Notes under the pieces: generated by a model
What the model was told of the DNA's origin: nothing
Database searches by the model: none
The model's input: the letters and a program-made list of their open reading frames with translations, nothing else
Program-made: the position numbers and the translations under genes
NCBI RefSeq assembly: GCF_000511355.1
Contig: NC_023135.1
Span: 2,754,371 to 2,818,370 of the forward strand
Source: Leisingera methylohalidivorans DSM 14336
GTDB taxonomy: Bacteria > Pseudomonadota > Alphaproteobacteria > Rhodobacterales > Rhodobacteraceae
Direction: 5' to 3'
DNA: 64,000 nt
In this document: piece by piece, positions 28,389-44,513 of the stretch
How the letters are laid out: each line of letters begins with the position of its first letter
Position numbering within the stretch: the first letter of the stretch is position 1

Positions 28389-28775
28389 CTATAGCAGCCT
28401 CCAGTCCACCCCGTTCGCCCGCCGCTCCAGCTCATCTCTGAAGTTATCTCCCCGGTCTCCTATGTCTAAATGCCGTGGGTTCAGGCAGCGCCGGTTATGA
28501 CATCGGTGCCGGATCACTTGGTCGCGGGTGGCGGCAAGCTGGTGGAGAACACAGTAAACAAACCTGTACGCACGATCTTGCTGGCCTTGAAAGCGGACCT
28601 TCCGGGGGCCGGTAGTTGGCGTGACCATGCAGCCATTTTCGTCTCGTTCAGTCTCATTCAGCAGTTCCTCCACTTTCTGGCAGGCTTCTTCATAGTGATT
28701 GACAAATAAGCTGGCGTACCATTCCTGGTTACGGTCCATTGCCACGAACAGGTCAGTATTACTCAATGATCTCAA
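28389..28775 (-). CDS. HNH endonuclease-like protein
   Basis: This 128-residue protein has a C-terminal HNH-like zinc-finger nuclease core (residues ~88-115: IRHRCHNRRCLNPRHLDIG). This layout is typical of phage-borne homing-type HNH_3 nucleases. The N-terminal half is acidic and helical. Its start overlaps the upstream gene by 17 bases, so the two are probably co-expressed. Base composition here is visibly less GC-rich than the flanks. With the adjacent tRNA-Gln, this suggests a remnant of an integrated element. No integrase is present. Confidence 0.75.
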   Translation of the reverse strand: MRSLSNTDLFVAMDRNQEWYASLFVNHYEEACQKVEELLNETERDENGCMVTPTTGPRKVRFQGQQDRAYRFVYCVLHQLAATRDQVIRHRCHNRRCLNPRHLDIGDRGDNFRDELERRANGVDWRLL

Positions 28776-29111: not shown

Positions 29112-30485
29112 TCACCCCAACACAGCTTGGACAGCCCGCAGCGTTGCTGCCACCACCTGATCAGCTTCCGCTCGGCTGAGGCAGAACGGCGGCGCAAAGC
29201 CCAGGATGTCGCCCTGCGGCATCGCGCGGGCGATGACCTTGTCCTGTTCCAGCAGTTTGGCCGAAATCTGCGGGCCGATTTTTTCAGCGGCATCAAAGAA
29301 GGTGCGGCTGTCCTTGTCTTTCACAAACTCCACCGCGCAAAGCATGCCCTCACCTCGAACTTCTCCGACATTGGCATGTCCTGACAGGGCCTCTGCCATG
29401 CAAGCGTTCAGATAGGCGCCGGTTTCACCGGCGTTTTGCACCAGGTTCAGTTCATCAATCAGTTTCAGGTTGGCAATCCCTGCCGCTGCACCGATAGGGT
29501 GCGCAGAATAGGTCCAGCCGTGGCCGATGGGGCCGTTTTCATCAGTGCCCTGCTCCAGCACCTTCCAGACCCTGTCCGAGATAATCGAGCCCGAAAGCGG
29601 CGCATAGGCCGAGGTGAGGCCCTTGGCGATGGTGATGATATCCGCCTCAATGCCGTAATGGTCCGAGCCGAACATGCTGCCGAGGCGCCCGAAACCGGTG
29701 ACAACCTCATCGGCAACCAGCAGGATGTCGTGCTTCTTCAGCACTGCTTGGATCGCTTGCCAGTACCCCGCAGGCGGCGGCACGATACCGCCGGTGCCTA
29801 GAATCGGCTCTCCGATAAAGGCAGCGATGGTATCAGCGCCTTCGCGCTCGATCAGTGCTTCCAGCTCAGCCACACAATGGGCAACGAACTGTTCTTCGCT
29901 TTGGTCCAGATCGGCACGGCGGTAGTAATAAGGCGCTTCGGTGTGAATGACCTGCTCGACCGGCAGATCGAATTTCTTGTGGAACAGCTCCAGCCCTGTG
30001 AGTGAGCCGGTCACCAGCCCGGAGCCATGGTAGCCGCGCCAGCGGGAGATGATCTTTTTCTTCTGCGGGCGGCCGAGAATGTTGTTGTAATACCAGATCA
30101 GCTTGACGTTGGTTTCATTCGCGTCCGAACCGCCTAGGCCGAAATAGACCTTGGACATGTTCTTCGGCGCGCGGTCCAGAATCATCTTGGCCAACGTGAT
30201 CGAAGCTTCGGTGCCATGGCCCACATAGGAATGGTAATAGGCCAGTTCTTTGGCCTGTTCGCCGATGGCCTCGGCAATTTCCTGACGGCCATAGCCAACG
30301 TTTACGCAGTAGAGGCCGGCAAAGGCATCCAGCAGCTTGTTGCCGTCGCGGTCCTCGATGAACACGCCGGAGGCGGTCTTGATCACCCGGTTCGGGCTTT
30401 CGCCACGGGCGTGCTGAGCCAGATGGGTCGAGGGATGGAAAAAGTTCTCGCGGTCCCACTGGTCGAGTTGGTCGTTCTTCAGCAT
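29112..30485 (-). CDS. doeD: class III aminotransferase of the ectoine cluster
   Basis: This 457-residue PLP-dependent aminotransferase starts at the ATG at 30485. The cofactor lysine is in IIIAKGLTSAYAPL-type context (ITIAKGLTSAY), and the aspartate in LLVADEVVTGFGRLG contacts the PLP nitrogen. As the last gene of the ectoine operon (atf/doeD position) it is expected to convert 2,4-diaminobutyrate to aspartate semialdehyde. In isolation it would be called an omega-amino acid/polyamine:pyruvate aminotransferase. It is full length. Confidence 0.85.
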   Translation of the reverse strand: MLKNDQLDQWDRENFFHPSTHLAQHARGESPNRVIKTASGVFIEDRDGNKLLDAFAGLYCVNVGYGRQEIAEAIGEQAKELAYYHSYVGHGTEASITLAKMILDRAPKNMSKVYFGLGGSDANETNVKLIWYYNNILGRPQKKKIISRWRGYHGSGLVTGSLTGLELFHKKFDLPVEQVIHTEAPYYYRRADLDQSEEQFVAHCVAELEALIEREGADTIAAFIGEPILGTGGIVPPPAGYWQAIQAVLKKHDILLVADEVVTGFGRLGSMFGSDHYGIEADIITIAKGLTSAYAPLSGSIISDRVWKVLEQGTDENGPIGHGWTYSAHPIGAAAGIANLKLIDELNLVQNAGETGAYLNACMAEALSGHANVGEVRGEGMLCAVEFVKDKDSRTFFDAAEKIGPQISAKLLEQDKVIARAMPQGDILGFAPPFCLSRAEADQVVAATLRAVQAVLG

Positions 30486-30513
30486 CTTGCTTCCTTTCTC
30501 TTCCGCGTGAGGG

Positions 30514-31989
30514 TCAGGCCCAGTCGCGGCAAACGTATTTAATCTCGGTGAACTCTTCCATGCCCAGCCGCGCGCCTTCGCGGCCCAGGCCGGACTGTTT
30601 GGTGCCGCCGAACGGGATCGGCGCACCGGTCACCTTGGTGCGGTTGACTGCCACCATGCCGTATTGCAAGGCGCGGCTCAGCCGGTAGATCCGCCGCGGG
30701 TCGTGGCTGTGGACATAGGCCACCAGCCCGTATTCGCTGTCATTGGCACGCGCGGTCACCTCCTCTTCGGTATCGAAAGGGGTGATGGGGGCGACGGGGC
30801 CGAATGTCTCCTCGGACATGATCAGCGCACTGGACGGCACATCGGTCAGCACAGTCGGCTCAAAAAACAGCGGCCCCAGCGGATGGCGCTTGCCACCGCA
30901 AGCCAGCGTGGCGCCTTTGGCGAGCGCATCTGCCACATGCTCCTCCTGCTTCTGCACCGCCTTTTCATTCATCAGCGGGCCGAGGTCGCAGTCGTCCATG
31001 CCCCGGCCGATGGTCAGCGCTTTGGCAGCTTCGGTGAATTTCACGCAGAACTCGGCATAGACGGGCCGCTCCACAAAGACCCGGTTGGCGCCCAGGCAGT
31101 CCTGGCCGGACGTGGCGAATTTTGCCTTGATTGTCTCAGCGACCGCTTTGTCCAGATCGCAGCCCTTGAAGACGATCACCGGCGCGTGGCCGCCCAGTTC
31201 CATCACCAGCCGCTTCACGGTGTCCGCTGACTGGCGATACAGGAGTTTGCCGATATTGGTGGAGCCAGTGAAGGACAGCGCCCGCACGCGGGTGTCGCGG
31301 GTCCAGGGTTCGACGACGGTTGGCGCGCTGCCGGTCACCACGTTGAACACCCCCGCCGGGACGCCGGCGCGTTCCGCCAGCTCTGCCAGCGCCAGGGCGC
31401 TGAACGGGGTTTCACCCGAAGGGTGCGCCACCACAGTGCAGCCCGCCGCCAGCGCCGCGGCCGCCTTGCGGGTCAGCATCGCGGAGGGGAAGTTCCAGGG
31501 CGTGATCAGCGCCGCCACCCCCACCGGTTCGCGCCACAGCTCCACCTCGGCGTCGGGCAGGTGGCTGGTGACGCCTTCGATATTGGGGCGCTTGGCCTCC
31601 TCGGCATAGAACTCTACAAAGGCCGCACCGTAATCGATCTCGCCGCGGGCTTCGGAAAGGGGTTTACCCTGTTCCAGCACCATAATGCGGGCGAGGTCTT
31701 CCCTGTGTTCCAGTTGCAGCTCAAACCAGCGCCGCAGAATCGCGGCGCGCTGTTGCGGCAACAGGCCGGCCCAGGCCTCAAACGCCGCCTGAGCCGCATC
31801 CACGGCCGCAGTGGATTCCTCTGCCGACAGGCTCGCCACATGGCCCAGCTCAGCACCGTCCGCCGGATCACTGACCGGAAAGGTCTCGCCATTATCCGCG
31901 GTGCACCATTTGCCGCCGATATAGGAAAATGAGCGCACCAAGGCCTTGTCGGCAATCTCGGCACGGGCGGAGAGAGCAGTCTCTGTCAT
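30514..31989 (-). CDS. doeC: succinate-semialdehyde-dehydrogenase-like aldehyde dehydrogenase of the ectoine cluster
   Basis: This 491-residue aldehyde dehydrogenase has the PWNFP motif, the general base glutamate in MELGGHAP, the catalytic cysteine in SGQDCLGAN and EETFGPV. In the ectoine pathway (ssd/doeC position) it should oxidise aspartate semialdehyde to aspartate. The stretch that normally reads KPA(S/G)ETPFS, whose lysine contacts the NAD(P) ribose, here reads HPSGETPFS, an unusual substitution. It lies 28 bases upstream of the aminotransferase gene. Confidence 0.85.
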   Translation of the reverse strand: MTETALSARAEIADKALVRSFSYIGGKWCTADNGETFPVSDPADGAELGHVASLSAEESTAAVDAAQAAFEAWAGLLPQQRAAILRRWFELQLEHREDLARIMVLEQGKPLSEARGEIDYGAAFVEFYAEEAKRPNIEGVTSHLPDAEVELWREPVGVAALITPWNFPSAMLTRKAAAALAAGCTVVAHPSGETPFSALALAELAERAGVPAGVFNVVTGSAPTVVEPWTRDTRVRALSFTGSTNIGKLLYRQSADTVKRLVMELGGHAPVIVFKGCDLDKAVAETIKAKFATSGQDCLGANRVFVERPVYAEFCVKFTEAAKALTIGRGMDDCDLGPLMNEKAVQKQEEHVADALAKGATLACGGKRHPLGPLFFEPTVLTDVPSSALIMSEETFGPVAPITPFDTEEEVTARANDSEYGLVAYVHSHDPRRIYRLSRALQYGMVAVNRTKVTGAPIPFGGTKQSGLGREGARLGMEEFTEIKYVCRDWA

Positions 31990-32103
31990 GATGTCCTCCT
32001 CATGTCTTGCAGAGGAGTGTGCCTGTTCACGGCAGAGGAAGTGACTGAAGTTAAGGTGCGCCGCAGAAGAAACAGCTGCGAGACAGGTGCTTTGGCGCGG
32101 GGT

Positions 32104-32583
32104 TCACTCCTGCTTCAGCAGAATATCCAGCGGCGGCGCGCACGCGCCTTTAACCGGCTTGGTCACGATATAGGTAAAGTAGCGGCTTAGGCCGATGCGG
32201 GCGTCCAGCATCTCGTCAATCAGCCGCTGATAGGCATCTATGTCGCTGGTAACGATCTGCAGCAGGTAATCAAATCCGCCCCCCAGCGCCCAGCAGGCGG
32301 TGACCTCATCATAGCGTTGCATCGCCGTCTCAAACGCGCGAAAGCTGGCGGCGGTGTGATCAGCGATCTCCGCTGCAACAAACACCGTCACATGCGGCGC
32401 CAGTTTCTTGAGGTTGATGCGAGCGCCGTAACCTTCGATCAGCCCGGCCTGCTCCAGCTTCTTCAGCCGGTCCCAGCAGGGGGTCGGCGACAGGCCGATC
32501 CGTTCGGCCAGCGCGGCCTTGGTGATGCGCCCCTCGGTTGAGAGCACCCGCAGAATATCAAGGTCGCGCTGATCCAGTTGCAT
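32104..32583 (-). CDS. doeX: Lrp/AsnC-family regulator of the ectoine cluster
   Basis: This 159-residue protein has an N-terminal helix-turn-helix (LAERIGLSPTPCWDRLKKLE) and a C-terminal ligand-binding RAM domain. The start at 32583 (MQLDQRDLDIL) follows the doeB stop by 13 bases; an extended start at 32634 lies inside doeB and is unlikely. In Ruegeria pomeroyi an asnC gene sits between eutE and ssd in the ectoine operon, as here. It probably responds to an amino acid intermediate. Confidence 0.88.
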   Translation of the reverse strand: MQLDQRDLDILRVLSTEGRITKAALAERIGLSPTPCWDRLKKLEQAGLIEGYGARINLKKLAPHVTVFVAAEIADHTAASFRAFETAMQRYDEVTACWALGGGFDYLLQIVTSDIDAYQRLIDEMLDARIGLSRYFTYIVTKPVKGACAPPLDILLKQE

Positions 32584-32596
32584 GTGTTCCGCCCTA

Positions 32597-33589
32597 TCAG
32601 GCGCCGGCGACGCCGACAACAGCCACGCAGTCACCGGATTTAATCAACCCGGGAAAGTGGCGGCTGATCATCAGGCCCGCGCGGCGGGCGCGGTATTCCA
32701 CAGGCGGCTGCCCGGTGCGGTCCAGCGGCCAGACCCGGGCGATCAGATCGCCCTTGGCTACCACCTCGCCCAGATCGGCCATCGCCTCGTAAAGACCGTC
32801 GCCTTCGCTGAACAGGAAACAATCGCCGTCCGGCATCGACAGGTTCACAGTTTTATCCAGCTGCATCTCTCCCTGCAGGATGCCGAAGTGGATCAGCACG
32901 TTGCGCAGCCCCTTCTTGGCGATCGCATTGCTGCGCGCCGTCGACGACCCGCCGCCGCCCAGCTCGGTAGTGACCAGCACCTTGCCCATATCTTCGACCG
33001 CGGTGTCATACATGCCCGCACTGTCGATCTCCAAAAGCTGCACCGAATAGGGCGCGTTGAACGCCATCATCGCGGCAAAGCAGGCCTCCTGTGTCGCCTT
33101 GTCCTCCAGGATATGCGCGGCTGCAAAGGGCACGAAATCCAAGGTCTTGCCGCCCGAATGAAAATCCACCGCAACATCTGCCATCGGCAACAACGTGCGC
33201 TGAAAGAAGTCGGCGATTTTTTCGGTCACGGTGCCGTCAGGGCGGCCTGGAAACGACCGGTTCATGTTGCCTTTGTCGATGGGCGAGGTGCGGCTGCCTG
33301 CACGGAACGCCGGGTAGTTGAAGGCCGGCACGATGATCAGCCTGCCGGACACATCCTCTGCCTTTGTAGCGGCGGCCAGCTCATGCAGGGCAATCGGGCC
33401 TTCGTACTCATCCCCGTGGTTGGCGCCGGTCAAGAGCGCGGTCGGCCCGTCGCCATTCTTGATCACCGTCAGCGGGATCATCACCGAGCCCCAAGCCGAG
33501 TCGTCGCGGCTGTAGGGCAGCTTAAGAAAGCCGTGATGCACCCCGTCCTGATCCAGCGGGATAGTGGGGGAAATCGGATTTGGCTTCAT
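32597..33589 (-). CDS. doeB: N-acetyl-2,4-diaminobutyrate deacetylase
   Basis: This 330-residue zinc-dependent hydrolase is of the succinylglutamate desuccinylase/aspartoacylase family. The metal-binding motif is NHGDEYEG (His and Glu near residue 59) and a later ligand is in VAVDFHSGGKTLDF. It removes the acetyl group from alpha-acetyl-2,4-diaminobutyrate, the second step of ectoine breakdown (also called EutE). It directly follows doeA with three bases between. Full length. Confidence 0.9.
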   Translation of the reverse strand: MKPNPISPTIPLDQDGVHHGFLKLPYSRDDSAWGSVMIPLTVIKNGDGPTALLTGANHGDEYEGPIALHELAAATKAEDVSGRLIIVPAFNYPAFRAGSRTSPIDKGNMNRSFPGRPDGTVTEKIADFFQRTLLPMADVAVDFHSGGKTLDFVPFAAAHILEDKATQEACFAAMMAFNAPYSVQLLEIDSAGMYDTAVEDMGKVLVTTELGGGGSSTARSNAIAKKGLRNVLIHFGILQGEMQLDKTVNLSMPDGDCFLFSEGDGLYEAMADLGEVVAKGDLIARVWPLDRTGQPPVEYRARRAGLMISRHFPGLIKSGDCVAVVGVAGA

Positions 33590-33592
33590 GGC

Positions 33593-34780
33593 TCAGTCCT
33601 TTACCAGCATTTTGCGCGGCACGCTTGACAAGCATTCCGGCCCGTTTGCGCCGATGCGTATGCTTTCAGTGATCTCGAAACCCCAGTCCTCCATCCAGAG
33701 GCCGGTCATGAAATGGAAGGTCATGTTTTCCTGCAGCACGGTCGTGTCGCCCGGCCGCAGCGACATGGTGCGCTCGCCCCAATCCGGCGGGTAGCTGACG
33801 CCGATCGGATAACCGGTGCGGTTGTCCTTTTCGATACCGTAGGTTTTCAGAACCTTGAAAAACGCCTTGGCGATATCTTCGCAGGTGTTGCCGGCCTTGG
33901 CCATTTCAAGCCCCGCTTCCATGCCCTCCAGCACCGCCTGTTCCGCGCTCAGGAAGGTCTGCGTCGGCTTGCCCAGGAACACGGTGCGCGACAGCGGGCA
34001 GTGATAGCGGTGCACAACGCCTGCAATTTCAAAGAAGGTGCCCTCGCCGGGTTTCATCGGCTGGTCGTCCCAGGTCAGATGCGGCGCGGCAGCGTCAGGG
34101 CCTGACGGCAGCAGCGGCACAATCGCCGGATAATCGCCGCCAATGCCCAGACCCTCGTCATAGCGCAGGGCGGAGTCATAGATCTCCGCCACCAGATCGC
34201 ATTTGCGCATCTCCGGCTCGACCTTCTCGAAAATCCGCCGGTGCATACGCTCCACGATCTTGCCCGCCTGGCGCATATAAGTGAGCTCGGCTTCGGATTT
34301 TACCGCCCGCTGCCAGTTCACCAGCGCGTTGGAGTCGGCAAAGCGCGCATTGGGAAGGTGCTTTTGCAGCGATGCAAAGGCGGCCGCGGTGAAATAGTAG
34401 TTGTCCATTTCAACACCGATGGCGCCGCCGTCCAGCCCGCGGTCCTTCAGCTGCGCAGACAGGTAATCCATCGGGTGGCGCTCGGTCGATTGCACATAAT
34501 GGTCCGGGTAACCGATGATACTGACGGGATCCATGTAGCAGGTGAGCAAGGCACCGTTGGCATCCTGGCCGCGGCCGTACCAGATCGGCTCACCCTCCAG
34601 GCCAATAATAACGCATTGATGCACATAGAAGGACCAGCCGTCATAGCCGGTCAGCCAGTTCATGTTAGAGGGATCGGTGACGATCAAAAGATCAAGCCCG
34701 CGGCGCACCATCTCGGTGCGGGTCTTGTCCAGGCGCTCTTGGTATTCAGCGCGGGAGAAATACAGCTTGGGGTTTGCCAT
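33593..34780 (-). CDS. doeA: ectoine hydrolase
   Basis: This 395-residue member of the M24 (creatinase/pita-bread) fold family starts at 34780 (MANPKLYFSRAEY). The N-terminal creatinase-N domain has the family motif TDPSNMNWLTGYDGWSFY, and the catalytic domain is C-terminal. DoeA (EutD) opens the ectoine ring to N-acetyl-2,4-diaminobutyrates, whose alpha isomer also induces EnuR-controlled genes. The open frame is complete even though eutC, eutB and the transporter genes just upstream are destroyed. Transcription must therefore come from a distal or new promoter. Confidence 0.9.
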   Translation of the reverse strand: MANPKLYFSRAEYQERLDKTRTEMVRRGLDLLIVTDPSNMNWLTGYDGWSFYVHQCVIIGLEGEPIWYGRGQDANGALLTCYMDPVSIIGYPDHYVQSTERHPMDYLSAQLKDRGLDGGAIGVEMDNYYFTAAAFASLQKHLPNARFADSNALVNWQRAVKSEAELTYMRQAGKIVERMHRRIFEKVEPEMRKCDLVAEIYDSALRYDEGLGIGGDYPAIVPLLPSGPDAAAPHLTWDDQPMKPGEGTFFEIAGVVHRYHCPLSRTVFLGKPTQTFLSAEQAVLEGMEAGLEMAKAGNTCEDIAKAFFKVLKTYGIEKDNRTGYPIGVSYPPDWGERTMSLRPGDTTVLQENMTFHFMTGLWMEDWGFEITESIRIGANGPECLSSVPRKMLVKD

Positions 34781-34799
34781 ATGCGTGGGTCCTAGTTGA

Positions 34800-35360
34800 T
34801 CAGCTGGTGAATGTAGTGCCAGCGCCCACCGCGTCTGCGCGGGCACCTGCAAGGGTTGCGATGGCGGGGTCCTGCACGCCGATGCCGGTGATGCCGGCAA
34901 TGATGAGATCACCGTCTGACTGGAGGCCAGTGGCCTTGCCCGCGGTAATGTCACCCAATTCAGTGAAACTGCAGTCCTTGGAGATCAGCCCAGCCCCGAT
35001 GGCGCTGCGCAGCTCGCACTTGACGGAACACTGTGTCTGGCTGCCAGGAACATAGGCGTCCGGCTTGGCTAGGCAGACGGGTTCCAATTCGCACTTGTGC
35101 TCCTGGTCCGGTCCCGTCGCGATGAGCAAATGTCCCGGCTGAAGCCACTCCGCTTTGATACCAGGCACTGGCGCGGGCGTGGTGGTTACCACGATATCCG
35201 CCGAAGATACCGCTTGGGCGATGCCTGTGCTGACCGAGATTTCAACCCCTGGCTCCTCGTGCAGATTGCCCGCCTCGGCCTCGGCCTTGGCTTCGTCCCG
35301 CGCCCAGCTCACCGCTTTTTTGGTGCCGCGTACCGGAGGCATAGCCTTCAGCTGCAACTT
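34800..35360 (-). pseudogene. eutC: eutC remnant (ornithine cyclodeaminase family), 5' half lost
   Basis: About 186 codons match the C-terminal part of the ornithine cyclodeaminase/mu-crystallin family (SWARDEAKAEAEAG, ADIVVTTTPAPVPGIKAEWL, ELRSAIGAGLISKD, GVQDPAIATLAGARADA), ending at the normal stop 20 bases before doeA. The N-terminal ~140 residues, including substrate-binding positions, are missing. It is fused in frame to an eutB fragment. Several usual residues of the nucleotide site appear altered. Confidence 0.78.
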
Positions 35361-35513
35361 CGCCTGCACCCCGGCCTGCGCTGCCGCATAGGCCAGCCCG
35401 CGTCCCTGGTTCGCGGTGGAAAAGCCCACCCCCCCCGCCGCGCGCTGTTCGCCGGTAAGCGGTAATACCGCATTTGCGGCGCCGCGCAGCTTGAAGCTGC
35501 CGGTGATCTGAGA
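35361..35513 (-). pseudogene. eutB: eutB fragment (threonine-dehydratase-like)
   Basis: About 50 codons match the PLP-lysine region of serine/threonine dehydratase-type EutB (ITGSFKLRGAANAVLPLT, then a degraded GFSTANQGRGLAYAA where STGNHGRAL is usual). All other parts of the ~330-residue protein are gone. It joins uehC sequence on one side and eutC sequence on the other without breaking the frame. Confidence 0.75.
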
Positions 35514-36274
35514 GCTTTCCAGGTCGCGCAGGAACAGCGCAATCTGCGGGAAGAAGATCGGTGCCACGGAAACCCCCAACAGCATTGGGATGGTCACCGG
35601 GAACCCCATCGGCCACAGCGCCGCGCGCTTGGCCGCCAGCCGCTCCACCCAGTTCGCTTTGGGCTCGGCGGGCAGGCTGTTGCACGCCGCATAGACATAG
35701 GTTGAAGCCTTAAGCAGCAGCAGGATCAGCAGCCCCGGCCCGATGCCTCCAATGAACAGTTCGGCAATCGATATGCTGGAGACCACGCCGCAGATGATCA
35801 TGCCAATAGAGAGCGGGATCAGAAAAGTGATACCGCTGGCGATGACGATCAGCGCCAGCAAAAAACAGTCTTCGTAACCGGCCTGCAGTATTTGCGGCCG
35901 CAGCGAAGAGCCAATCGCAACCACCGAGGCCTGGGCCGGACCCGGCACTGCTCCGAACATGGTGCATGCGGCAGCGGTTGAGATCGCCAGCCCGCCACGG
36001 ATGTGGCGGACAGAGGCCATCACCACATTGGTCAGCTGCCCCGCCAACTGATCGCGGGTCATGATGCCGGCGGTAAAGATAGGCATCGGCACCGGCGAGG
36101 CCAGGCGGATGCCCGGCGGCGTCTGCTGACCATGGTCTCGGTGCGGGCCAGATCGCCGGACGGCATCAAAAATCCGGCGATCGCGCCGGCAATCAGCGGG
36201 GCCTTCATTGGAAAGCCCATCAGCAACAGGACAATCATTGTCAGGAAACTTGCTACAGTCACGGACAAGCCCAA
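35514..36274 (-). pseudogene. uehC: uehC remnant (TRAP transporter large permease)
   Basis: The start at 36274 (MGLSVTVASFLTMIVLLLMG) matches the DctM-type ectoine permease. One base is missing near 36122 after ARTETMV. Homology continues in the next frame (IFTAGIMTRDQLAG, ISTAAACTMFGAVPG, SIAELFIGGIGPGLL, RAALWPMGFPV) to near 35590. There a large internal part is absent and a probable permease C-terminus (FFPQIALFL) follows, before the eutB fragment. About half of the normal ~430 residues remain, with many non-conservative substitutions. Confidence 0.8.
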
Positions 36275-36405
36275 GGATTTCGATTTCTTTCACGTTCCCG
36301 TAGCCTGCTTGCACTGGGTCGATAGGCAGATGCGGGAAGTGCCCAGGTTGCGCACCGCGGCCAGCAGGTGCAGCACGCCGGTCATTGCGAAGCGGACTAG
36401 GTACC
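36275..36405 (-). pseudogene. possible uehB tail (TRAP small permease)
   Basis: A short minus-strand stretch translates as MTGVLHLLAAVRNLG, like the last helix of a DctQ-type small permease, in the position where uehB should precede uehC. Nothing else of the gene is recognisable between 36275 and the uehA stop at 36540. The call rests on position and a short match only. Confidence 0.35.
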
Positions 36406-36539
36406 CAGAGCAGAATGCCCCTAACCAGAATCTGCAAGGCGGGCTGCACTGACTCGCGTGTTAGAGGCATTCCGTTCCCCTCAGGCCCCAAAGCCGCTGG
36501 GCAGGCAGGACCCGCTGAGCAATGTTTGCAGGCCGTGCG

Positions 36540-37557
36540 TCATTTGGCGGTAGCCGCCAAGTCTGTCGTCATCTGCGCCTGAATCGCTGCAGCTCTGTCG
36601 CCGCTCCTCTCAATGATTTGCTTTCGACCTCCAACCGCCGCCGTTTTGAAGCAACTGCGTTGCTCGTCGTTCAACACAGTCACCTGCATCTCCGGCTTCA
36701 TTCCTATATTCATGGCTAGCGCACTCTCCCCCGCTTCCTGCAGGTAAACCACGGTGTGGGCATAGGCCGGCAGCGCCGCCTTCTGCGCCAACTTCTGGCC
36801 CTCAGGGCTCGGGCCGCCATGGAAGCCCTTTTTTGCCATCAGCGTGGTGGTTGAATTGTTGCGGCCGACATAGGAGATGCAGTCGGTGACCTCATAGATC
36901 TTGGTCGAGAAGCGGAAGAACGCCGGGCTCTCCTGCCCCTGGATCACATTGGTTTTCAGCCCGCCGCAAACCTCGCCCCAAGGCAGCGGAGACGGGGTAG
37001 CGCCAAAGGCCTTGTAGCTTTCGACCAGCAGCGGGTTAATCATAGCCCCGTACTTGACCTCGCCCCGATCGGCGCAGGCGGTGACCGGCGTCTCGGCCTT
37101 CATCGCCAATTCACCCTTGGGGAACATGTTCAGCAGCTCCAGCCCCTGATCGGTAAAAAGCGGTTTGAATATGCAATTTGGTCGCTTTGCTCTCCTTGTA
37201 GAAGCGCACTGGGTTATCCTGATCGGTCGGCAGCAGATACGGCACAAAAAACACTTGGGCCTCGGGGATCGGCGAGCTGGTGAAGCCCGGCGACTCCTCC
37301 ACGAACCGAGGGATGCCATCCAGGGTCCGCTCCATGATGCCGGCCGGTGCGCCCAAAGTGCCATAAGGGAACAGCTGGATCTCGTGATCCGCGTTTGCCT
37401 TAATCTCTGGCTTAAATGTCCGCGCATAGACGCCCTGAACTTCGGTTATTGCTTCCGCAAAGGTATAGCGCCAAGTGGCGGCCTGCGTGGCGCCGCCCGT
37501 CAGCGCAATCCCCGCTGCCGCTAGGGCCGCGGAGGTGACTTTGACAGTTTTAGCCAT
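36540..37557 (-). pseudogene. uehA: uehA, ectoine TRAP binding protein, frameshifted
   Basis: The 5' part (start 37557, signal peptide MAKTVKVTSAALAAAGIALT) reads as the ectoine-binding protein (TWRYTFAEAITEVQGVYA, HEIQLFPYGTLG, EAQVFFVPYLLPTDQD) until FYKESKA, near 37185. There a net one-base shift moves homology to another frame. It continues IFKPLFTDQGLELLNMFPKG, PSPLPWGEVCGGLKTNVIQG and MQVTVLNDEQRSCFK, to the stop at 36540. Scattered replacements of conserved positions suggest a long time without selection. UehA normally captures ectoine and hydroxyectoine in the periplasm. Confidence 0.85.
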
Positions 37558-37652
37558 GGTTTCCTCCCAAGTCCCCTTGGTGCCTGAGCACCGTTTCGTC
37601 AGGCCTGAAAGGAATTGTACTGCATGTCAATTTTTTTATTGTTGCAGGACAA

Positions 37653-39047
37653 TCAGTATATAAAGGACGCACCCCCCTCCGGCGGGCGGCCCAGCATGCC
37701 GGCAATCAGCTCCAACGCCTGCCTGAATCGATCCAGATCCTGAATACTGCCGAGCGACAGACGCACCGCATTCGGCGGCGGTGTCTTTGGGGTCAGGAAC
37801 GGCGCGTCCGGCGCCACCGCGACTTTCAGCTCACGCGCGTAAGAAACGAAACTGCCGGTGCTCCAGCCCTTGGGGAGCGGCAGCCATAGATGCAATGCCG
37901 AAGGGTGGCCTTGCCAGTGCCAGTCTTTCAGCACCTCTGCGGCGATAGCATAGCGCTCCGCCAGCGCGCGCCGCTGCCACTGCGCCAGCTCCAGCGCGGT
38001 GCCGTCCTGCACCCAGCGGGTGGCCAGTTCGCACATCAGCGGCGTCGCCATCCAACCGAACACGACAATCCGCCCGGTCAATGCCGGCAGCAGATGCTCC
38101 GGCGCCGCCATGTAGCCTGCGCGCAGCCCCGACACAGTGCATTTGGTAAAAGTCGTCAAATAGATTGACCGCTCCGGTGCAAGAGCGGCAACCGGAATCG
38201 GGCGGCCCTCGGCAACCGGACCGAATGCATCGTTTTCGATGATGTGCAGATCATGTTTGCGGGCGATCCCCACCAGCGCACGGCGGCGGTCTTCAGGCAT
38301 CATTCCCGCCGTCGTGTTAGCCAAAGACGGTAGCAAAAACAGAACCTTAGGGTTGCCTCCCTTGCAAACCCGCTCAAGCGCATCCGGAAGGATACCATCC
38401 GCATCCACATCAACCCCTGCAAGGTTCAAGCCCAGATAGGAACACCCCGAAACCAGCAAATGGTGTGTGACCTTGTCTGACACCACGGTGTCGCCAGGCC
38501 GGGTCAGCGCCGATAGCGCCGCTGACATGCCGTGACTGACCCCATTGGTCATTATGATCCGCTCCGGCAGCACCTCCAAACCGCAATGCTGCAGCCACTG
38601 CGCTCCGGCGGCCCGGTGGGCGTCATGACCGATATTCGGGCGGCAGGACAGATAGTAGCTCGGATCCAACCCCTCCGGCAGGACCCTCAGCGCTTGCTCG
38701 AACCGTTCTGCGTGCTGCTGTGAAAATGCCGGGCGTGAAATCGACAGGTCGAAACCGCCGCCCCGCTCAGAGCTCAGCAGGAACGGCTGATCATTGGGCT
38801 TGTCAGGATCCAGAACGTAGCTGCCCCGGCCGACTTGGCCGTCAATCAGCTTTTGCCGCCGCAAACTTTCATATGCCTTGCTGACAGTGTGGACACTCAG
38901 CCCGAGATCATCGGCCATTTTGCGGTGGGTCGGCAACTGCGTCCCCTTCCTTAGCTTGCCGTCTGAGATTGCCCGTGCGATGGCCAGCGCAAGGCTCGCA
39001 TGCAGGGGGGAGGTCAAGGTAGAGGGATCAGGACGCCAAATTGTCAT
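37653..39047 (-). CDS. enuR: EnuR, MocR-type regulator of ectoine utilisation
   Basis: This 464-residue MocR/PdxR-type regulator has an N-terminal GntR winged helix (residues ~15-75: PTHRKMADDLGLSVHTVSKA) and a C-terminal fold type I aminotransferase-like domain binding PLP. The PLP lysine is in TFTKCTVSGLRAGYM. EnuR represses ueh/eut genes until 2,4-diaminobutyrate derivatives react with the PLP. The start at 39047 (MTIWRPDP) matches the family; the open frame extends further upstream without a good site. It lies directly upstream of uehA, as in Ruegeria pomeroyi, and is intact. Confidence 0.88.
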   Translation of the reverse strand: MTIWRPDPSTLTSPLHASLALAIARAISDGKLRKGTQLPTHRKMADDLGLSVHTVSKAYESLRRQKLIDGQVGRGSYVLDPDKPNDQPFLLSSERGGGFDLSISRPAFSQQHAERFEQALRVLPEGLDPSYYLSCRPNIGHDAHRAAGAQWLQHCGLEVLPERIIMTNGVSHGMSAALSALTRPGDTVVSDKVTHHLLVSGCSYLGLNLAGVDVDADGILPDALERVCKGGNPKVLFLLPSLANTTAGMMPEDRRRALVGIARKHDLHIIENDAFGPVAEGRPIPVAALAPERSIYLTTFTKCTVSGLRAGYMAAPEHLLPALTGRIVVFGWMATPLMCELATRWVQDGTALELAQWQRRALAERYAIAAEVLKDWHWQGHPSALHLWLPLPKGWSTGSFVSYARELKVAVAPDAPFLTPKTPPPNAVRLSLGSIQDLDRFRQALELIAGMLGRPPEGGASFIY

Positions 39048-39352: not shown

Positions 39353-40450
39353 TCACGCCAGTTTCAGCACCTGCTCGATTACATATTCGGTCTGCGATAC
39401 AGTCTGAGCAGGACCGATCGGCAGGCTGATCACTTCCGCAGCCAATGTCTCAGAAACAGGGAACGCGCCCTTGGTATAGCCAAGCCCGGTATAGGCCTTC
39501 TGCAGATGCGGCGGTTTGGGGTAGTGAATGACGGTGCTGACCCCAGCCGCTTCCAGCCGGGCACGGAAAGCATCCCGGTCCGGGTGGCGCGCCACAAAGA
39601 GATGCCACACCGGGCTCGCCCATTGCGGAACCACCGGCAGCACCAAGCCGGACGCGGACAGCGCCTCCAGATAACGGGCGGCAATTGCCTGACGGCGGGC
39701 ATTCCAAGCATCGAGCACTTGCAGCTTCACCTGCAGTGCTGCCGCCTGGATCGGATCCAGGCGGCTGTTCTGGCCGGCCAGTTCATGCTCGTATTTAACC
39801 GCCGAGCCATAGTTCCGCAGCATCGAGACCCGTGCCGCCAGCTCCGGCGAGGTGCTGGTGAAACCGCCGCCATCGCCCAACGCACCCAGATTTTTACCCG
39901 GGTAAAAGCTCCAGCACGCGGCCTCGCCAAAGCTGCCGATCCGCTTGCCTTTGTATTTGGCTCCATGCGCTTGGGCAGCGTCTTCCAGCAGGTGCAACCC
40001 GTGCTGACCGGCCAGTTCCATCAGCGGATCCATGTCAGCAGGCTGGCCATATAGGTGGACCGGGATGATGGCCTTGGTGCGGGACGTTATGGCGGCGGCC
40101 ACCGCATCCGGGTCGACATTGTGGGTGGCCTCCAGCGGCTCCACCGGAACGATGGCGGCACCGCAATAGCTGACTGCCAGCCAGGTTGCGATATAGGTAT
40201 TTGCGGGCACAATGACTTCGTCCCCCGAACCGATGTCCATCGCCTTCAACGCCAGGATCAGCGCGTCCAGCCCGTTGCCAGTGCCCAAGCAGTGAGGAGC
40301 ACCGGTGTAGCGGGCAAATCCGGTCTCAAACGCTTCAACCTCAGGGCCCAGAATGAAGTACCCGGACCGCGCAACCCGCAGCACAGCTGCCTCCAGCTGG
40401 TCCTGAATTTCGGCATGGGCGCCAGCGATATCGAGGAACGGGACTCTCAC
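39353..40450 (-). CDS. DegT/DnrJ/EryC1/StrS sugar aminotransferase
   Basis: This 365-residue PLP enzyme is of the nucleotide-sugar aminotransferase family. The cofactor lysine is in FYPGKNLGALGDGG and substrate-loop motifs include GTGNGLDAL and EDAAQAHGAKYKG. Its start overlaps the stop of the FdtA-like gene (ATGA). Together they fit FdtA/FdtB or QdtA/QdtB, which make dTDP-3-amino-3,6-dideoxyhexoses by 3,4-ketoisomerisation and transamination at C3. Confidence 0.88.
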   Translation of the reverse strand: MRVPFLDIAGAHAEIQDQLEAAVLRVARSGYFILGPEVEAFETGFARYTGAPHCLGTGNGLDALILALKAMDIGSGDEVIVPANTYIATWLAVSYCGAAIVPVEPLEATHNVDPDAVAAAITSRTKAIIPVHLYGQPADMDPLMELAGQHGLHLLEDAAQAHGAKYKGKRIGSFGEAACWSFYPGKNLGALGDGGGFTSTSPELAARVSMLRNYGSAVKYEHELAGQNSRLDPIQAAALQVKLQVLDAWNARRQAIAARYLEALSASGLVLPVVPQWASPVWHLFVARHPDRDAFRARLEAAGVSTVIHYPKPPHLQKAYTGLGYTKGAFPVSETLAAEVISLPIGPAQTVSQTEYVIEQVLKLA

Positions 40451-40899
40451 ACTGCACCTGCCGCATTTTTGAATTCATCATAGTCGCGGATGTAGTCCGC
40501 CTCGTCATAAACTTCGGATGTCAGCACCATGCAGACCGCCCCCGAAGAGAAGTTGTCCAGATAGCGCCACATCATCGGGCAGACATACAGTCCGTAATAG
40601 GAGCGGTTCAGATGGAAACGCTTGGTCGCGAAGCCGTCATCCAGCAGAATGTCGAAGCTGCCCGACATGCAGATAATAAACTGATGCAGCGCCTTATGCG
40701 CGTGCTCGCCCCGGTCAGCCCCGCCCGGAACATCGTAGAGATAGTACACCCGCTTGATATCAAAGGGAATATGGTTGCCGCCTTCAACAAAAGTCAGGTT
40801 GCCCCGCACGTCTGTTATTTTGGGCAAGTCAATGATTTTGCAGTCAGTCAGAGGCACGGAAACCGCCTTCGCATTTGAATGTCCCTTGTGTATATGCAT
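40447..40899 (-). CDS. FdtA/QdtA-like dTDP-sugar 3,4-ketoisomerase (WxcM-like cupin)
   Basis: This 150-residue cupin starts at 40899 (MHIHKGHSNAKAV). Family hallmarks are DVRGNLTFVEGGNHIPFDIK, RVYYLYDVPGG, RGEHAHKALHQ with the catalytic histidines, LLDDGF and the C-terminal EVYDEADYIRDYDEF. It would isomerise dTDP-4-keto-6-deoxyglucose to the 3-keto form. It is co-transcribed with the DegT gene and diverges from the acyltransferase gene across 67 bases. Confidence 0.9.
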   Translation of the reverse strand: MHIHKGHSNAKAVSVPLTDCKIIDLPKITDVRGNLTFVEGGNHIPFDIKRVYYLYDVPGGADRGEHAHKALHQFIICMSGSFDILLDDGFATKRFHLNRSYYGLYVCPMMWRYLDNFSSGAVCMVLTSEVYDEADYIRDYDEFKNAAGAV

Positions 40900-40966
40900 A
40901 TCTGAACCGGACCAGCAAGCAGCGCCGGCCGCCAGGGCCGCCTCAATCAAGGACAACGTCCCTCCC

Positions 40967-41641
40967 ATGAGCAAAAAGCTACTGATCATCGGTGCGGGTG
41001 AATTCGCCGACATCGCTTATGAGTATTTCACCGTCGACAGCGACTATGAGGTCGCGGGCTTTGCGGTGGAGGCAGAGTTTCTGACCGAGGAAGAGAAATT
41101 CGGCCTGCCCGTGGTGGCGCTGGAAACCGTGGAAACCGTGTTCCCCGCCTCTGAGGTTGAGGCGCATGTGGCCGTGACCTCGACCAAACTGAACCGGATC
41201 CGCGCACGGCTGATCGAAATTGCCCGCAGCAAGGGCTACACGCTAGCCAATTTCATCAGCCCGCATGCTATGGTTTGGCGCACGGCAGAACTGGGCGACA
41301 ATGTTTTCATATTTGAAAACAACGTGGTGCAGCACGGGGTCAAGATTGAAAGCGGCTGCGTGCTGTGGTCGGGCAACCATATCGGCCATCAGACCCGGAT
41401 CCGCGAGCACTGTTTCCTGGCGTCGCATGTGGTGGTCTCGGGCTACTGCGATATCGGTGCGCGCAGCTTTGTCGGGGTCAATGCCACCTTTGCTGACAAT
41501 GTGAAAATCGGCGAGGACTGCTTTGTCGGCATGGCCGCTGCCGTGAACAAGAGCTTTGACACCCCGGGCCAGATTCTGAACGGCAATCCGGCAGAGGCTG
41601 CAAAAGTCTCCTCCTACCGTTATTTCCGGATCAAACAGTAA
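40967..41641 (+). CDS. NeuD-like sugar O/N-acyltransferase (left-handed beta-helix)
   Basis: This 224-residue protein has an N-terminal Rossmann-like PglD_N segment (LLIIGAGEFADIAYEYF). Hexapeptide repeats follow from residue ~95 (FIFENNVVQHGVKIESGCVL, IGHQTRIREHCFLASHVVVS). It probably acylates the amino sugar made by the divergent FdtA/DegT pair, or another glycan group. It heads a four-gene plus-strand run with one- to three-base gaps to the next two genes. Confidence 0.85.
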   Translation: MSKKLLIIGAGEFADIAYEYFTVDSDYEVAGFAVEAEFLTEEEKFGLPVVALETVETVFPASEVEAHVAVTSTKLNRIRARLIEIARSKGYTLANFISPHAMVWRTAELGDNVFIFENNVVQHGVKIESGCVLWSGNHIGHQTRIREHCFLASHVVVSGYCDIGARSFVGVNATFADNVKIGEDCFVGMAAAVNKSFDTPGQILNGNPAEAAKVSSYRYFRIKQ

Positions 41642-41642
41642 G

Positions 41643-42569
41643 ATGGGCTGGGTCAAGAAAGGGCTGGTATTTGCCCCGGATGGAAGCCATGACTGGGCCA
41701 GGCATTCCTTCATGACGCCTTGCCCCTGGCAGCGGGACGAGGACACCATCCGTCTGTTCGGCGGGATGCGGGATGATCGGGGGATCAGCCGGATCGGCTG
41801 GGTCGACGTCGATGCCTCCGACCCGCTGCAGGTCAAGGCTGTTTCCGCCAAGCCCGCGATCGGGTTGGGAACGCCGGGCATGTTCGATGACAACGGCATG
41901 ATCCTAGGCGATGTTCTGGAAGTCGCAGAGGATGAGCTGCGGCTGTACTATGTCGGGTTTCAACTGGTGGAAAAAGCCAAATTCCTGGCTTTCAGCGGCC
42001 TGGCCGTGAGCCGCGACCGGGGCAACAGTTTCAAGCGGGTGCAGCAGACTCCGGTCATCGACCGCTGCCCCGAGGGCGCCTTTATCGGCGCCCTGCATTC
42101 CATTGCAGCGCTACCTGATGGCACATACCGGGCCTGGATCTCCCGCGGATTCGGCTGGCAAGACATTGGCGGCCGACTGTTTCCACAATACGATTGCTGG
42201 ACCCTGACCAGCAAAGACGGCATACGCTTTGACAATGCCTCGGCGCAGCGGATCATCGCCCCTGCCCCGGAGGAATACCGCATCGGCCGTCCGCGGGCGA
42301 ACCAGCTTGCAGACGGATCATGGGAATTGCGCGCAACCTCCGACACACTGTCAAAGCAGTATGCCAGCTTCCGTTTCACCTCTCCTGACGGGGTGAGCTT
42401 TACTCGGACTGGCGACGAGGAACTGCCGCGCGGCGGAACGGATGCCTGGGACGGCGAGATGACCTGCTACCCGGCGCGGATCGATACGGAGCAGGGCCGG
42501 AGCTATTTGTTCTACAACGGCAATGACATGGGCGCCACCGGTGTGGGCGTCGCCGTCCTTGAGGATTGA
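41643..42569 (+). CDS. predicted five-bladed beta-propeller, glycosidase-like protein
   Basis: This 308-residue protein has no signal peptide. The recurring pattern of short aromatic/Asp strands (DTIRLFGGMRDDRGISRIGW, LRLYYVGFQLVEKAKFLAFS, YLFYNGNDMG) resembles GH43/GH32-like propellers found in glycan gene clusters. Catalytic residues cannot be assigned by eye. Its place, one base after the acyltransferase gene, suggests a role in surface glycan assembly or trimming in the cytoplasm. Confidence 0.6.
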   Translation: MGWVKKGLVFAPDGSHDWARHSFMTPCPWQRDEDTIRLFGGMRDDRGISRIGWVDVDASDPLQVKAVSAKPAIGLGTPGMFDDNGMILGDVLEVAEDELRLYYVGFQLVEKAKFLAFSGLAVSRDRGNSFKRVQQTPVIDRCPEGAFIGALHSIAALPDGTYRAWISRGFGWQDIGGRLFPQYDCWTLTSKDGIRFDNASAQRIIAPAPEEYRIGRPRANQLADGSWELRATSDTLSKQYASFRFTSPDGVSFTRTGDEELPRGGTDAWDGEMTCYPARIDTEQGRSYLFYNGNDMGATGVGVAVLED

Positions 42570-42572
42570 GTC

Positions 42573-43514
42573 GTGGCAATCGAGGTTCAGCGCTATGCAG
42601 CGGAAGACGCCTGCCAGTGGGATGACTTCCTGAAGGCGTCGAAAAACGGCACCTTCCTGTTTCAGCGCGGGTTCATGGACTACCACGCCGACCGGTTTCA
42701 GGATCATTCGCTGATGATCCATGAAGACGGCAAGCTGCTGGCCGTGATGCCCGCAAATGCCGATAGCAGCGTGCTGAACTCCCATGGCGGGCTGACCTAT
42801 GGCGGGGTGGTCTCCGGTGCGAAGATGAGTGCTGAACGCATGCTTGCTGTGTTCGACGCACTTGGCGTCTATCTGCGCGCCGCCGGGTTCACCGGAGTCA
42901 ACTACAAGGCGGTCCCCTATATCTACCACAGCCAGCCGGCCGATGAAGACATTTATGCCCTGTTCCGGCACGGTGCGCAGGCTGTGCGCACGGATGTGTC
43001 AGCCACCATCGCAGTACCCCGCCGCCTGCCCTTTGGCAGCGGTAAGAAGGACGGGCTGCGCAAGGCGCGCAAGGCCGGGCTGGAAATCCGTGAAAGCACC
43101 GATTGGAGCGCCTGCTGGACTCTGCTGACCCAGGTTTTGGACGACCGCCACAACGCGCGGCCGGTGCACAGCGAGGCGGAGATCCGACTGCTTGCGGCCC
43201 GTTTTCCTGACCAGATCCGCATGTTCGGCTCCTTTGACAACGATCGGATGATCGCCGCCGTAGTGGTTTTTGATTGCGGCCGGACTGTGCATGTTCAGTA
43301 TATTGCCGCATCGGAACAGGGCCGCTTGAAGGGTGGCGTCGACTTGATCGTTCACCACCTGCTGGACACCGTCTTCACCGGCAGTGCGTGGCTCGACTTT
43401 GGCATTTCAACCACCGATCAGGGACGGATATTGAATACGGGCCTAGCCAAGCAGAAAGAGATGTTCGGTGCCCGCAGCACGGTGTATCAGCAGTACCGCT
43501 GGCAGCTCACCTGA
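42573..43514 (+). CDS. GNAT/FemAB-like acyltransferase
   Basis: This 313-residue protein starts with GTG at 42573, three bases after the propeller gene. The layout fits the BioF2-like/FemAB double-GNAT fold: an N-terminal part with TFLFQRGFMDYHADRFQDHS and a C-terminal part with GGVDLIVHHLLDTVFTGS and DFGISTTDQGRILNTGL. Such proteins add amino acids or acyl groups to sugars in capsule, O-antigen or peptidoglycan clusters. The substrate is unknown. Confidence 0.75.
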   Translation: MAIEVQRYAAEDACQWDDFLKASKNGTFLFQRGFMDYHADRFQDHSLMIHEDGKLLAVMPANADSSVLNSHGGLTYGGVVSGAKMSAERMLAVFDALGVYLRAAGFTGVNYKAVPYIYHSQPADEDIYALFRHGAQAVRTDVSATIAVPRRLPFGSGKKDGLRKARKAGLEIRESTDWSACWTLLTQVLDDRHNARPVHSEAEIRLLAARFPDQIRMFGSFDNDRMIAAVVVFDCGRTVHVQYIAASEQGRLKGGVDLIVHHLLDTVFTGSAWLDFGISTTDQGRILNTGLAKQKEMFGARSTVYQQYRWQLT

Positions 43515-43577
43515 CAAATTTTCATGCCGTCCGGAACACTGCCCGAGGATGTGGCCGGCCGAATAAGAGGACATGCA

Positions 43578-44513
43578 ATGACACATGAACCCGCCGCCAG
43601 TTTCATCCTGCTGTCCTATTGCCAGGAAGACACTATCGCCGAGTCAGTGAAGTCTTTGCTGAACCAGAATTGCGAAGCTATTGAGATCATTATCTCAGAT
43701 GATGCCTCTCCAGACGGGACGTTTGAAAAGATCAAGCAGCTTGTTGACACCTATTCCGGCCCGCACCGGATCTTGGCCCGGCGGAACGAAACTAATATGG
43801 GCGTAAACCGCCATATCGAACATGCCATCGACCTCGCCACCGCCGACCTGATGATCTGGACCGCCGGCGACGACCGCAATTCCCCCAACCGGGCCCAGCG
43901 GGTTATCGACAGCCACCGGAAAACCGGCGCCAAACTGCTCTATTCAGATGCGGAAACCGTCGGCCCGCAGGGAGAGCCTGGCGAGGACGCCTACCGCCGC
44001 GCCCTGTTCTACAAGGACTTCCGCACCGAGGATGCGGCCACTGCGTTTTCGCTCTACCTGGGCGCAACTGCTGCTTGGCACAAGGACCTCTATCGCAAAT
44101 ACGGCGGCTTCCCCAAGGACCGGGCCTATGAGGATCTTATCCTCGGCTTCCGCGCCCTGCTGGAGGACGGCCTGCACTACATTCCCGAGAAGCTGGTGAT
44201 CTACAAAGAAGATGTCGGCATCTCAGCCCAGCTGACGAAGAAGATCAGCACTCTCTCCAATCAGGACCGCAGAACACGGATGCTGAAAGGGCAACTGGCC
44301 GTCTTGGAGCAGCGCCTTACGGATGCCAGAATATTCGGTCTGGCGGAAAATTCGCCGGTTGTCAGGAAGATGACGCAAGCCGCCGGCAAGATCGGCGCAC
44401 GACTGGATTTCTATGACGGTATCAGCGCCGTGCTGGCCAGCCAGGACTATGGCTGGGGGGCCAAGCTGCAGGGCATCGCCAGCGAAGGCATGCGCAGGCT
44501 GCGCAACAGGTGA
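43578..44513 (+). CDS. family 2 glycosyltransferase
   Basis: This 311-residue GT-A enzyme starts at 43578 (MTHEPAASFILLSYCQEDTI). The nucleotide-binding aspartates are in IIISDDASPDGT, a DxD-like motif appears in TAGDDRN, and the acceptor-region ED is in DRAYEDLILGFR. No membrane helix is present. It probably attaches the modified sugar made by the neighbouring genes to a lipid-linked or protein acceptor. It ends the plus-strand run. Confidence 0.88.
   Translation: MTHEPAASFILLSYCQEDTIAESVKSLLNQNCEAIEIIISDDASPDGTFEKIKQLVDTYSGPHRILARRNETNMGVNRHIEHAIDLATADLMIWTAGDDRNSPNRAQRVIDSHRKTGAKLLYSDAETVGPQGEPGEDAYRRALFYKDFRTEDAATAFSLYLGATAAWHKDLYRKYGGFPKDRAYEDLILGFRALLEDGLHYIPEKLVIYKEDVGISAQLTKKISTLSNQDRRTRMLKGQLAVLEQRLTDARIFGLAENSPVVRKMTQAAGKIGARLDFYDGISAVLASQDYGWGAKLQGIASEGMRRLRNR

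Follow-up and report, generated by a model that had tools for sequence, protein, structure and literature searches.

The region ahead of doeA and doeB in the genome of Leisingera methylohalidivorans DSM 14336 is a dead relic of the ectoine genes uehABC-usp-eutABC, in which scraps of four genes, uehB, uehC, eutB and eutC, read as one continuous frame that ends at eutC's own stop. The region is regarded as a fossil because its deletions are absent from ten intact operons of the genus, near-invariant residues have been lost, its transporter part is relaxed and the fused protein occurs once among the 120 matches listed. Conservation of doeA, doeB and the block before uehA makes it probable that the relic is part of a live transcript. 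Two explanations of the open frame, chance and selection against polar breaks in translation, are about equally likely. The window analyzed is the whole stretch of 64,000 nt (C1:2754371-2818370) in a genome of 4,650,996 bases, the first contig of which comprises 4,144,900 bases.

Anatomy of the fused frame

The ORF list contains a minus-strand ORF of 563 codons (36491-34800), the authentic start of which is the uehB ATG at 36470 (position 4622 of locus L033, in the direction of the operon), leaving 556 codons (Table 1). The original prediction, drawn from the nucleotide letters, described a continuous minus-strand frame running through uehC, eutB and eutC to the eutC stop, a description with which the ORF list, the Pfam matches and the mapping on intact loci all agree; however, the frame comprises four genes rather than three, as it opens in uehB. 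Pfam recognizes DctM at residues 134-305 of the fused frame, OCD_Mu_crystall at 373-547 and, at 34.2 bits and thus just below the cut-off of 35, PALP at 324-380. The uehB start is followed by about 115 codons of scrap, either shifted or off-frame. Essential parts of the genes have been removed: 174 internal codons of uehC are gone and, with intact orthologues as reference, the eutB relic keeps 49 of 335 codons and the eutC relic 191 of 330. The lysine of the GSFKLRGA motif preserved in the eutB relic is presumably the PLP lysine. Both usp and eutA are gone from this locus, having been removed at junction J2. Within the uehC relic, a terminator-like hairpin with a T run was also observed (36174-36195, minus strand); three such sites are found in the region vs. 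2.7 expected by chance.

Table 1. Features of the relic and its flanks, in positions of the window
Feature	Position	Strand	Basis
enuR (EhuR/EnuR regulator), intact	37653..39047	-	NF052286, 608 bits (cut-off 480)
Kept block ahead of uehA, ATTGTCCTGCAACAAT ... ATTGACATGCAGTACAAT, presumed EnuR operator and promoter	37614..37653	-	ten intact loci and three without ueh, aligned
uehA relic, first part, own start to stop after the +1 at 37179	37111..37557	-	ORF list and alignments
Remainder of the uehA relic, in the native frame as far as the native stop	36540..37127	-	ORF list and alignments
Continuous 556-codon frame, uehB ATG to eutC stop	34800..36470	-	ORF list and alignment
J0, 369-nt in-frame deletion in uehB, repeat GCTGCC	36440..36449	-	length checked on four relatives
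uehB stop site, TGA in ten relatives, CTT here	36273..36275	-	alignment
1-nt deletion by which the frame of uehB passes into that of uehC	36128..36128	-	alignments
uehC relic, 178 codons, including a 6-nt deletion at 36094	35592..36125	-	intact-locus alignment
J1, 522-nt in-frame deletion in uehC, repeat CATC	35589..35592	-	length checked on six relatives
uehC relic near the C-terminus, 23 codons	35523..35591	-	intact-locus mapping
J2, uehC-eutB in-frame join, repeat CTGG, 1382-1390 nt lost including usp and eutA	35519..35522	-	five relatives
eutB relic, the 49 codons that surround the lysine of GSFKLRGA	35376..35522	-	Pfam and intact-locus mapping
J3, eutB-eutC in-frame join, repeat GTGC, 1141 nt lost	35366..35376	-	length checked on five relatives
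eutC relic, 191 C-terminal codons with the native stop	34800..35375	-	Pfam and intact-locus mapping
doeA (eutD), intact, 19 nt past the eutC stop	33593..34780	-	TIGR02993, 801 bits (cut-off 613)
doeB (eutE), intact	32597..33589	-	TIGR02994, 615 bits (cut-off 403)
Open genes of the asnC, ssd and aminotransferase types, in this order	29112..32634	-	family matches, those to the asnC and SSADH models scoring under the respective cut-offs

Junctions and small indels

Alignment with an intact ueh-eut locus had been suggested together with the original prediction; done with the intact Leisingera operons as reference, it mapped four large deletions, each at a direct repeat of 4-6 nt and each joining in frame. 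Three of them were foreseen, inside uehC, from uehC to eutB and from eutB to eutC, and the deletion in uehB raises the number to at least four. The same deletions are absent from all ten intact same-genus operons compared.

Small indels were called from alignment with five relatives. In the uehB part, a +1 at 36398 and a -1 at 36314 cancel each other. A frameshift near 36122 was thought to detach the uehC start, placed at 36274; the frameshift exists, at 36128, but the start aligns at 36262 (GTG), from where translation ends after 67 codons, and the shift does more than cut off this start, as it also links the uehB and uehC frames. In eutC, a cancelling pair of indels appears in the alignment with L036 alone, four other relatives giving no such pair. 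Outside the fused frame, uehA bears a cancelling +1/-1 pair near 36634/36617 and an uncompensated +1 at 37179 that leads to the stop at 37111; the first uehA indel is placed differently by one of the five relatives aligned. Since an in-frame uehA ATG at 37127, with GGAG upstream, is located just ahead of this stop, a restart of translation there is possible.

Some of the 1-nt indels could be errors of sequencing, as all six come from one genome only; a G8 run in the eutB scrap (35436-35429, minus strand) is also a possible slippage or sequencing-error site. This explanation is very improbable, because four large deletions and many missense changes cannot be base-calling errors and the genome was published as complete (PMC3910543).

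Loss of constraint

The branch leading to this genome was fitted with a model in which purifying selection gives way to neutral evolution, the neutral time being expressed in substitutions per site; L050 and L051 were excluded from the codon fits, and L041, which has a divergent eutC, from those of eutC. This per-fragment assessment, likewise suggested with the original prediction, revealed relaxation of uehA (neutral time 0.128, range within about 2 log units roughly 0.10-0.16) and of uehC (0.12, roughly 0.085-0.165), whereas the ranges of eutB (0.033, roughly 0-0.12) and eutC (0.028, roughly 0-0.09) include zero. The uehC value is approximate because a single uniform omega fits this gene 5 log units better than the purifying-then-neutral course. 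For the flanking genes, the neutral times are 0.017 for doeA, 0.0095 for enuR and 0 for doeB, and doeA is slightly relaxed, its profile lying at -4.2 log units at zero neutral time. The larger neutral times of uehA and uehC suggest that the importer was relaxed before eutB and eutC.

The erosion of conserved motifs that had first pointed to a fossil was confirmed by counting sites. In the relic, 43 of 183 near-invariant UehA sites (120 homologues) and 30 of 145 near-invariant UehC sites (88 homologues) are changed, vs. one and none, respectively, in L050, a functional outgroup. The variable sites show 43 of 123 changed in UehA and 19 of 56 in UehC, vs. 42 and 21 in L050. In eutC, 15 of 82 sites are changed vs. 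21 in L050, a comparison that says little as it relies on 31 close homologues only.

A membrane-anchored cyclodeaminase-like enzyme, i.e., a working new fusion protein, would be in keeping with the authentic uehB start of the frame and with the limited relaxation of its eutB and eutC pieces. Moreover, the protein collection already holds a three-domain gene call of 428 residues derived from the relic (P0001), which constitutes an annotation trap. We nevertheless consider such an enzyme highly unlikely, given the altered near-invariant sites of UehC, the loss of most of EutB and of 139 N-terminal EutC codons, and the scrap that follows the uehB start. The same fusion conserved in other strains would have spoken for a real protein; only this genome's own copy is fused among the 120 matches listed, all other matches cover at most 34% of the fused query, and the fusion is found in none of the 20 other Leisingera genomes, so that a conserved fusion protein was rejected. 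A scan of named genomes with the fused protein, which may leave out the genome of origin, was uninformative (80 loci, 79 from the Vibrio group and one from Paracoccus, at 26-41% identity).

The operon around the relic

The ATTGTCCTGCAACAAT...ATTGACATGCAGTACAAT block before uehA, presumed to be the EnuR operator and promoter, has been preserved in the form found in the intact species; six ueh-less loci have a similar block ahead of doeA. A sigma-70 scan of 34700-37700 returned no site, the kept block included, and is therefore uninformative. Downstream of the relic, doeB is constrained and doeA nearly so. Two neighbors of the operon may be mentioned. A sugar cluster adjoins it at 39353-44513 (DegT-type aminotransferase, FdtA-like protein, hexapeptide transferase, GNAT-type protein and family 2 glycosyltransferase), and behind it lies an ORF (28389-28775, minus strand) without a Pfam match at 1e-5, the C-terminal half of which resembles, by eye, what we take to be an HNH-type motif.

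The gene order is that of the intact operon of Ruegeria pomeroyi (PMC5924519; PMC13188858), the ectoine cluster of which is described as one 13.5-kb mRNA (PMC5924519), and that of the intact Leisingera operons, with which the locus also shares the block before uehA and the eutC-doeA gap. In contrast to both, where uehABC and eutABC are whole, uehA is broken here, usp and eutA are missing and the remaining four genes are scraps in one frame.

As regards the rest of the genome, a search with the EutB model yielded nothing over the cut-off, only the scrap and paralogues, and nothing over the cut-off was found for EhuB either; other UehA-like proteins of this genome are 26-30% identical to UehA. 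The genes for ectoine synthesis, ectA-ectB-ectC-aspartokinase, are present (L152:3871-7635, minus strand; C1:3211500-3222500). EctD had no match in this genome, but it had none in the control genomes either, which makes the search uninformative. It has been proposed that eutABC serves hydroxyectoine (PMC13188858), and the word ectoine is missing from the main text of the genome paper (PMC3910543). From the gene content, neither growth on hydroxyectoine nor import by UehABC would be expected. A switch from ectoine scavenging to the recycling of home-made ectoine is likely.

Operon decay in the genus and beyond

The relic is one member of a graded series of operon decay within a single genus. 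Among 21 Leisingera genomes, this one included, ten have the intact order enuR, uehA, uehB, uehC, (usp), eutA, eutB, eutC, doeA, doeB (G002, G003, G004, G005, G009, G010, G011, G014, G019, and G020), usp and, in some, eutA being assigned by position and size only; two species retain eutBC without ueh (G008 and G016); one carries a mini-relic (G001); six have little left ahead of doeA (G006, G012, G013, G015, and G018, read as loci, and G017, judged by DNA match alone); and one shows a distant doeA and weak ueh-like matches only (G007). The six resemble the present locus in having lost ueh and eutABC while keeping doeAB, and those five that were read as loci also retain enuR. Unlike here, the stretch is gone from them and doeA follows closely, with no relic to cross.

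Like the relic, the G001 mini-relic (L044:3003-3239, minus strand) is an in-frame eutB-eutC scrap that ends at the eutC stop just ahead of doeA. It differs in its breakpoints, in its length of 78 codons (from eutB's start, about 36 eutB codons and then the last 42 of eutC) and in having no ueh scraps. In the doeA-doeB tree, G001 belongs to a clade that excludes this genome (support 91; other nodes weak). The G001 scrap is judged to be independent of the relic.

Other genera provided no replicate, a point against the selection account given below. Out of 394 genomes sampled, 64 had doeA over the cut-off and 20 without a eutC match beside doeA were taken, two of which have a eutC match on another contig (G380 and G419) and one of which has too short a locus; no uehA, uehB, uehC, eutB or eutC relic was found next to doeA in any of the 19 loci. 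One of these loci has eutA and enuR (L143), and two have distant TRAP genes (L133 and L138, 24-31% identity). Two possible young relics were seen within the same family, one with an in-frame TAA within an EutC match (G047:C78:137782-138741), the other with an in-frame TGA within a DoeA match (G157:C9:48721-49887).

Chance or selection

In the mechanism that we propose, the importer would have ceased to function first, with eutABC probably following, and most of the DNA would have been removed by deletions between short direct repeats. As the block before uehA and doeA-doeB-asnC-ssd-atf behind the relic have been retained, RNA polymerase would reach doeA only after about 2.8 kb of relic. There, missense changes would cost nothing; a break in translation could cost doeA expression, either by Rho-dependent polarity or by lost coupling over the 19-nt eutC-doeA gap. 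Lesions leaving the frame open would be favored for this reason, and the survivors would read as one frame. That the relic is dead, that it sits in an ectoine operon still in use and that selection against polarity keeps its frame open is, in our estimation, a possibility slightly short of even. On the other hand, the same relic may have remained open by luck, having suffered few lesions in DNA of 62% G+C with few stops, and may have been noticed because it is open; to this account we grant the same near-even standing.

To put numbers on chance, neutral decay was simulated in 3000 runs that drew the junction phases and three 1-nt indels at random and applied the substitutions as fitted. Frames of at least 1320 nt ending at the eutC stop arose in 11 runs and an open path from uehB to eutC in none, figures that have to be read in the knowledge that the case itself was picked for being open. 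The corresponding counts were 40 and three when substitutions were omitted, and 209 and zero when small indels were omitted as well, the last zero being due to the intact uehB stop of the template. The recurrence of long frames in all three settings speaks for luck, and the lack of the full path in the complete simulation speaks against it. Because none of the three frames is closed in the short pieces of uehC and eutB, the net phase is all that has to be right for a long ORF. Furthermore, with 293 annotated pseudogenes in the genome (PMC3910543), an event of about 0.4% has had many opportunities to occur.

The native frames of the uehA, uehC, eutB and eutC relics have gained no stop despite the widespread loss of near-invariant residues. 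In the two other sense frames, the stops gained are 7 and 7 for uehA, 0 and 1 for uehC, 0 and 0 for eutB, and 2 and 2 for eutC, and constrained doeA has gained 2 and 4; the uehA figures favor selection and those of uehC weigh against it. A cruder count, in which the deficit looks stronger, would expect 6.9 stops over all four relic genes. The simulated chance of a stop-free native frame is 0.055 for uehA, 0.34 for uehC, 0.92 for eutB and 0.71 for eutC, few stops being expected in the last two because they show little neutral time, a point in favor of luck. The product of the four is about 0.01 (about 0.006 at an equilibrium G+C of 0.5). For the fused part alone the chance is about 0.22, and the absence of stops there was dropped as proof of selection. 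On the one hand, uehA lies outside the finding and is nonetheless stop-free in its own frame, which weakens the case for luck; on the other hand, its frameshift at 37179 is uncompensated, which weakens the case for selection.

Selection is further favored by the phase of the large deletions (four of four in frame), the two pairs of 1-nt indels that cancel, the kept block, the constraint on doeA and doeB, and the single mRNA of the R. pomeroyi cluster. The G001 scrap adds a second in-frame instance before doeA, although its single join had one chance in three of being in frame. Both alternatives raised by the original prediction, chance and the avoidance of polarity, thus survive at about even odds, with simulated numbers now attached to them.

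Implications for decaying operons

Dead genes in live transcripts, as proposed here, have a parallel in the transcribed pseudogenes of Mycobacterium leprae (PMC2753549), in the available part of which the upkeep of reading frames is not addressed; judged by titles, we found no literature on frame upkeep in relic operons. The general proposition is that selection on downstream genes would keep open the reading frames of dead genes at the head of a live operon, missense changes being free and stops and frame breaks weeded out; it seems to us a little less probable than its negation. The Leisingera relic makes the underlying question, whether polarity puts selection on the reading frames of dead genes, a testable one. 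If the proposition is true, the decay of operons would give rise to chimeric open reading frames, which are wrongly annotated as novel fusion proteins and would serve as markers of live transcription units.
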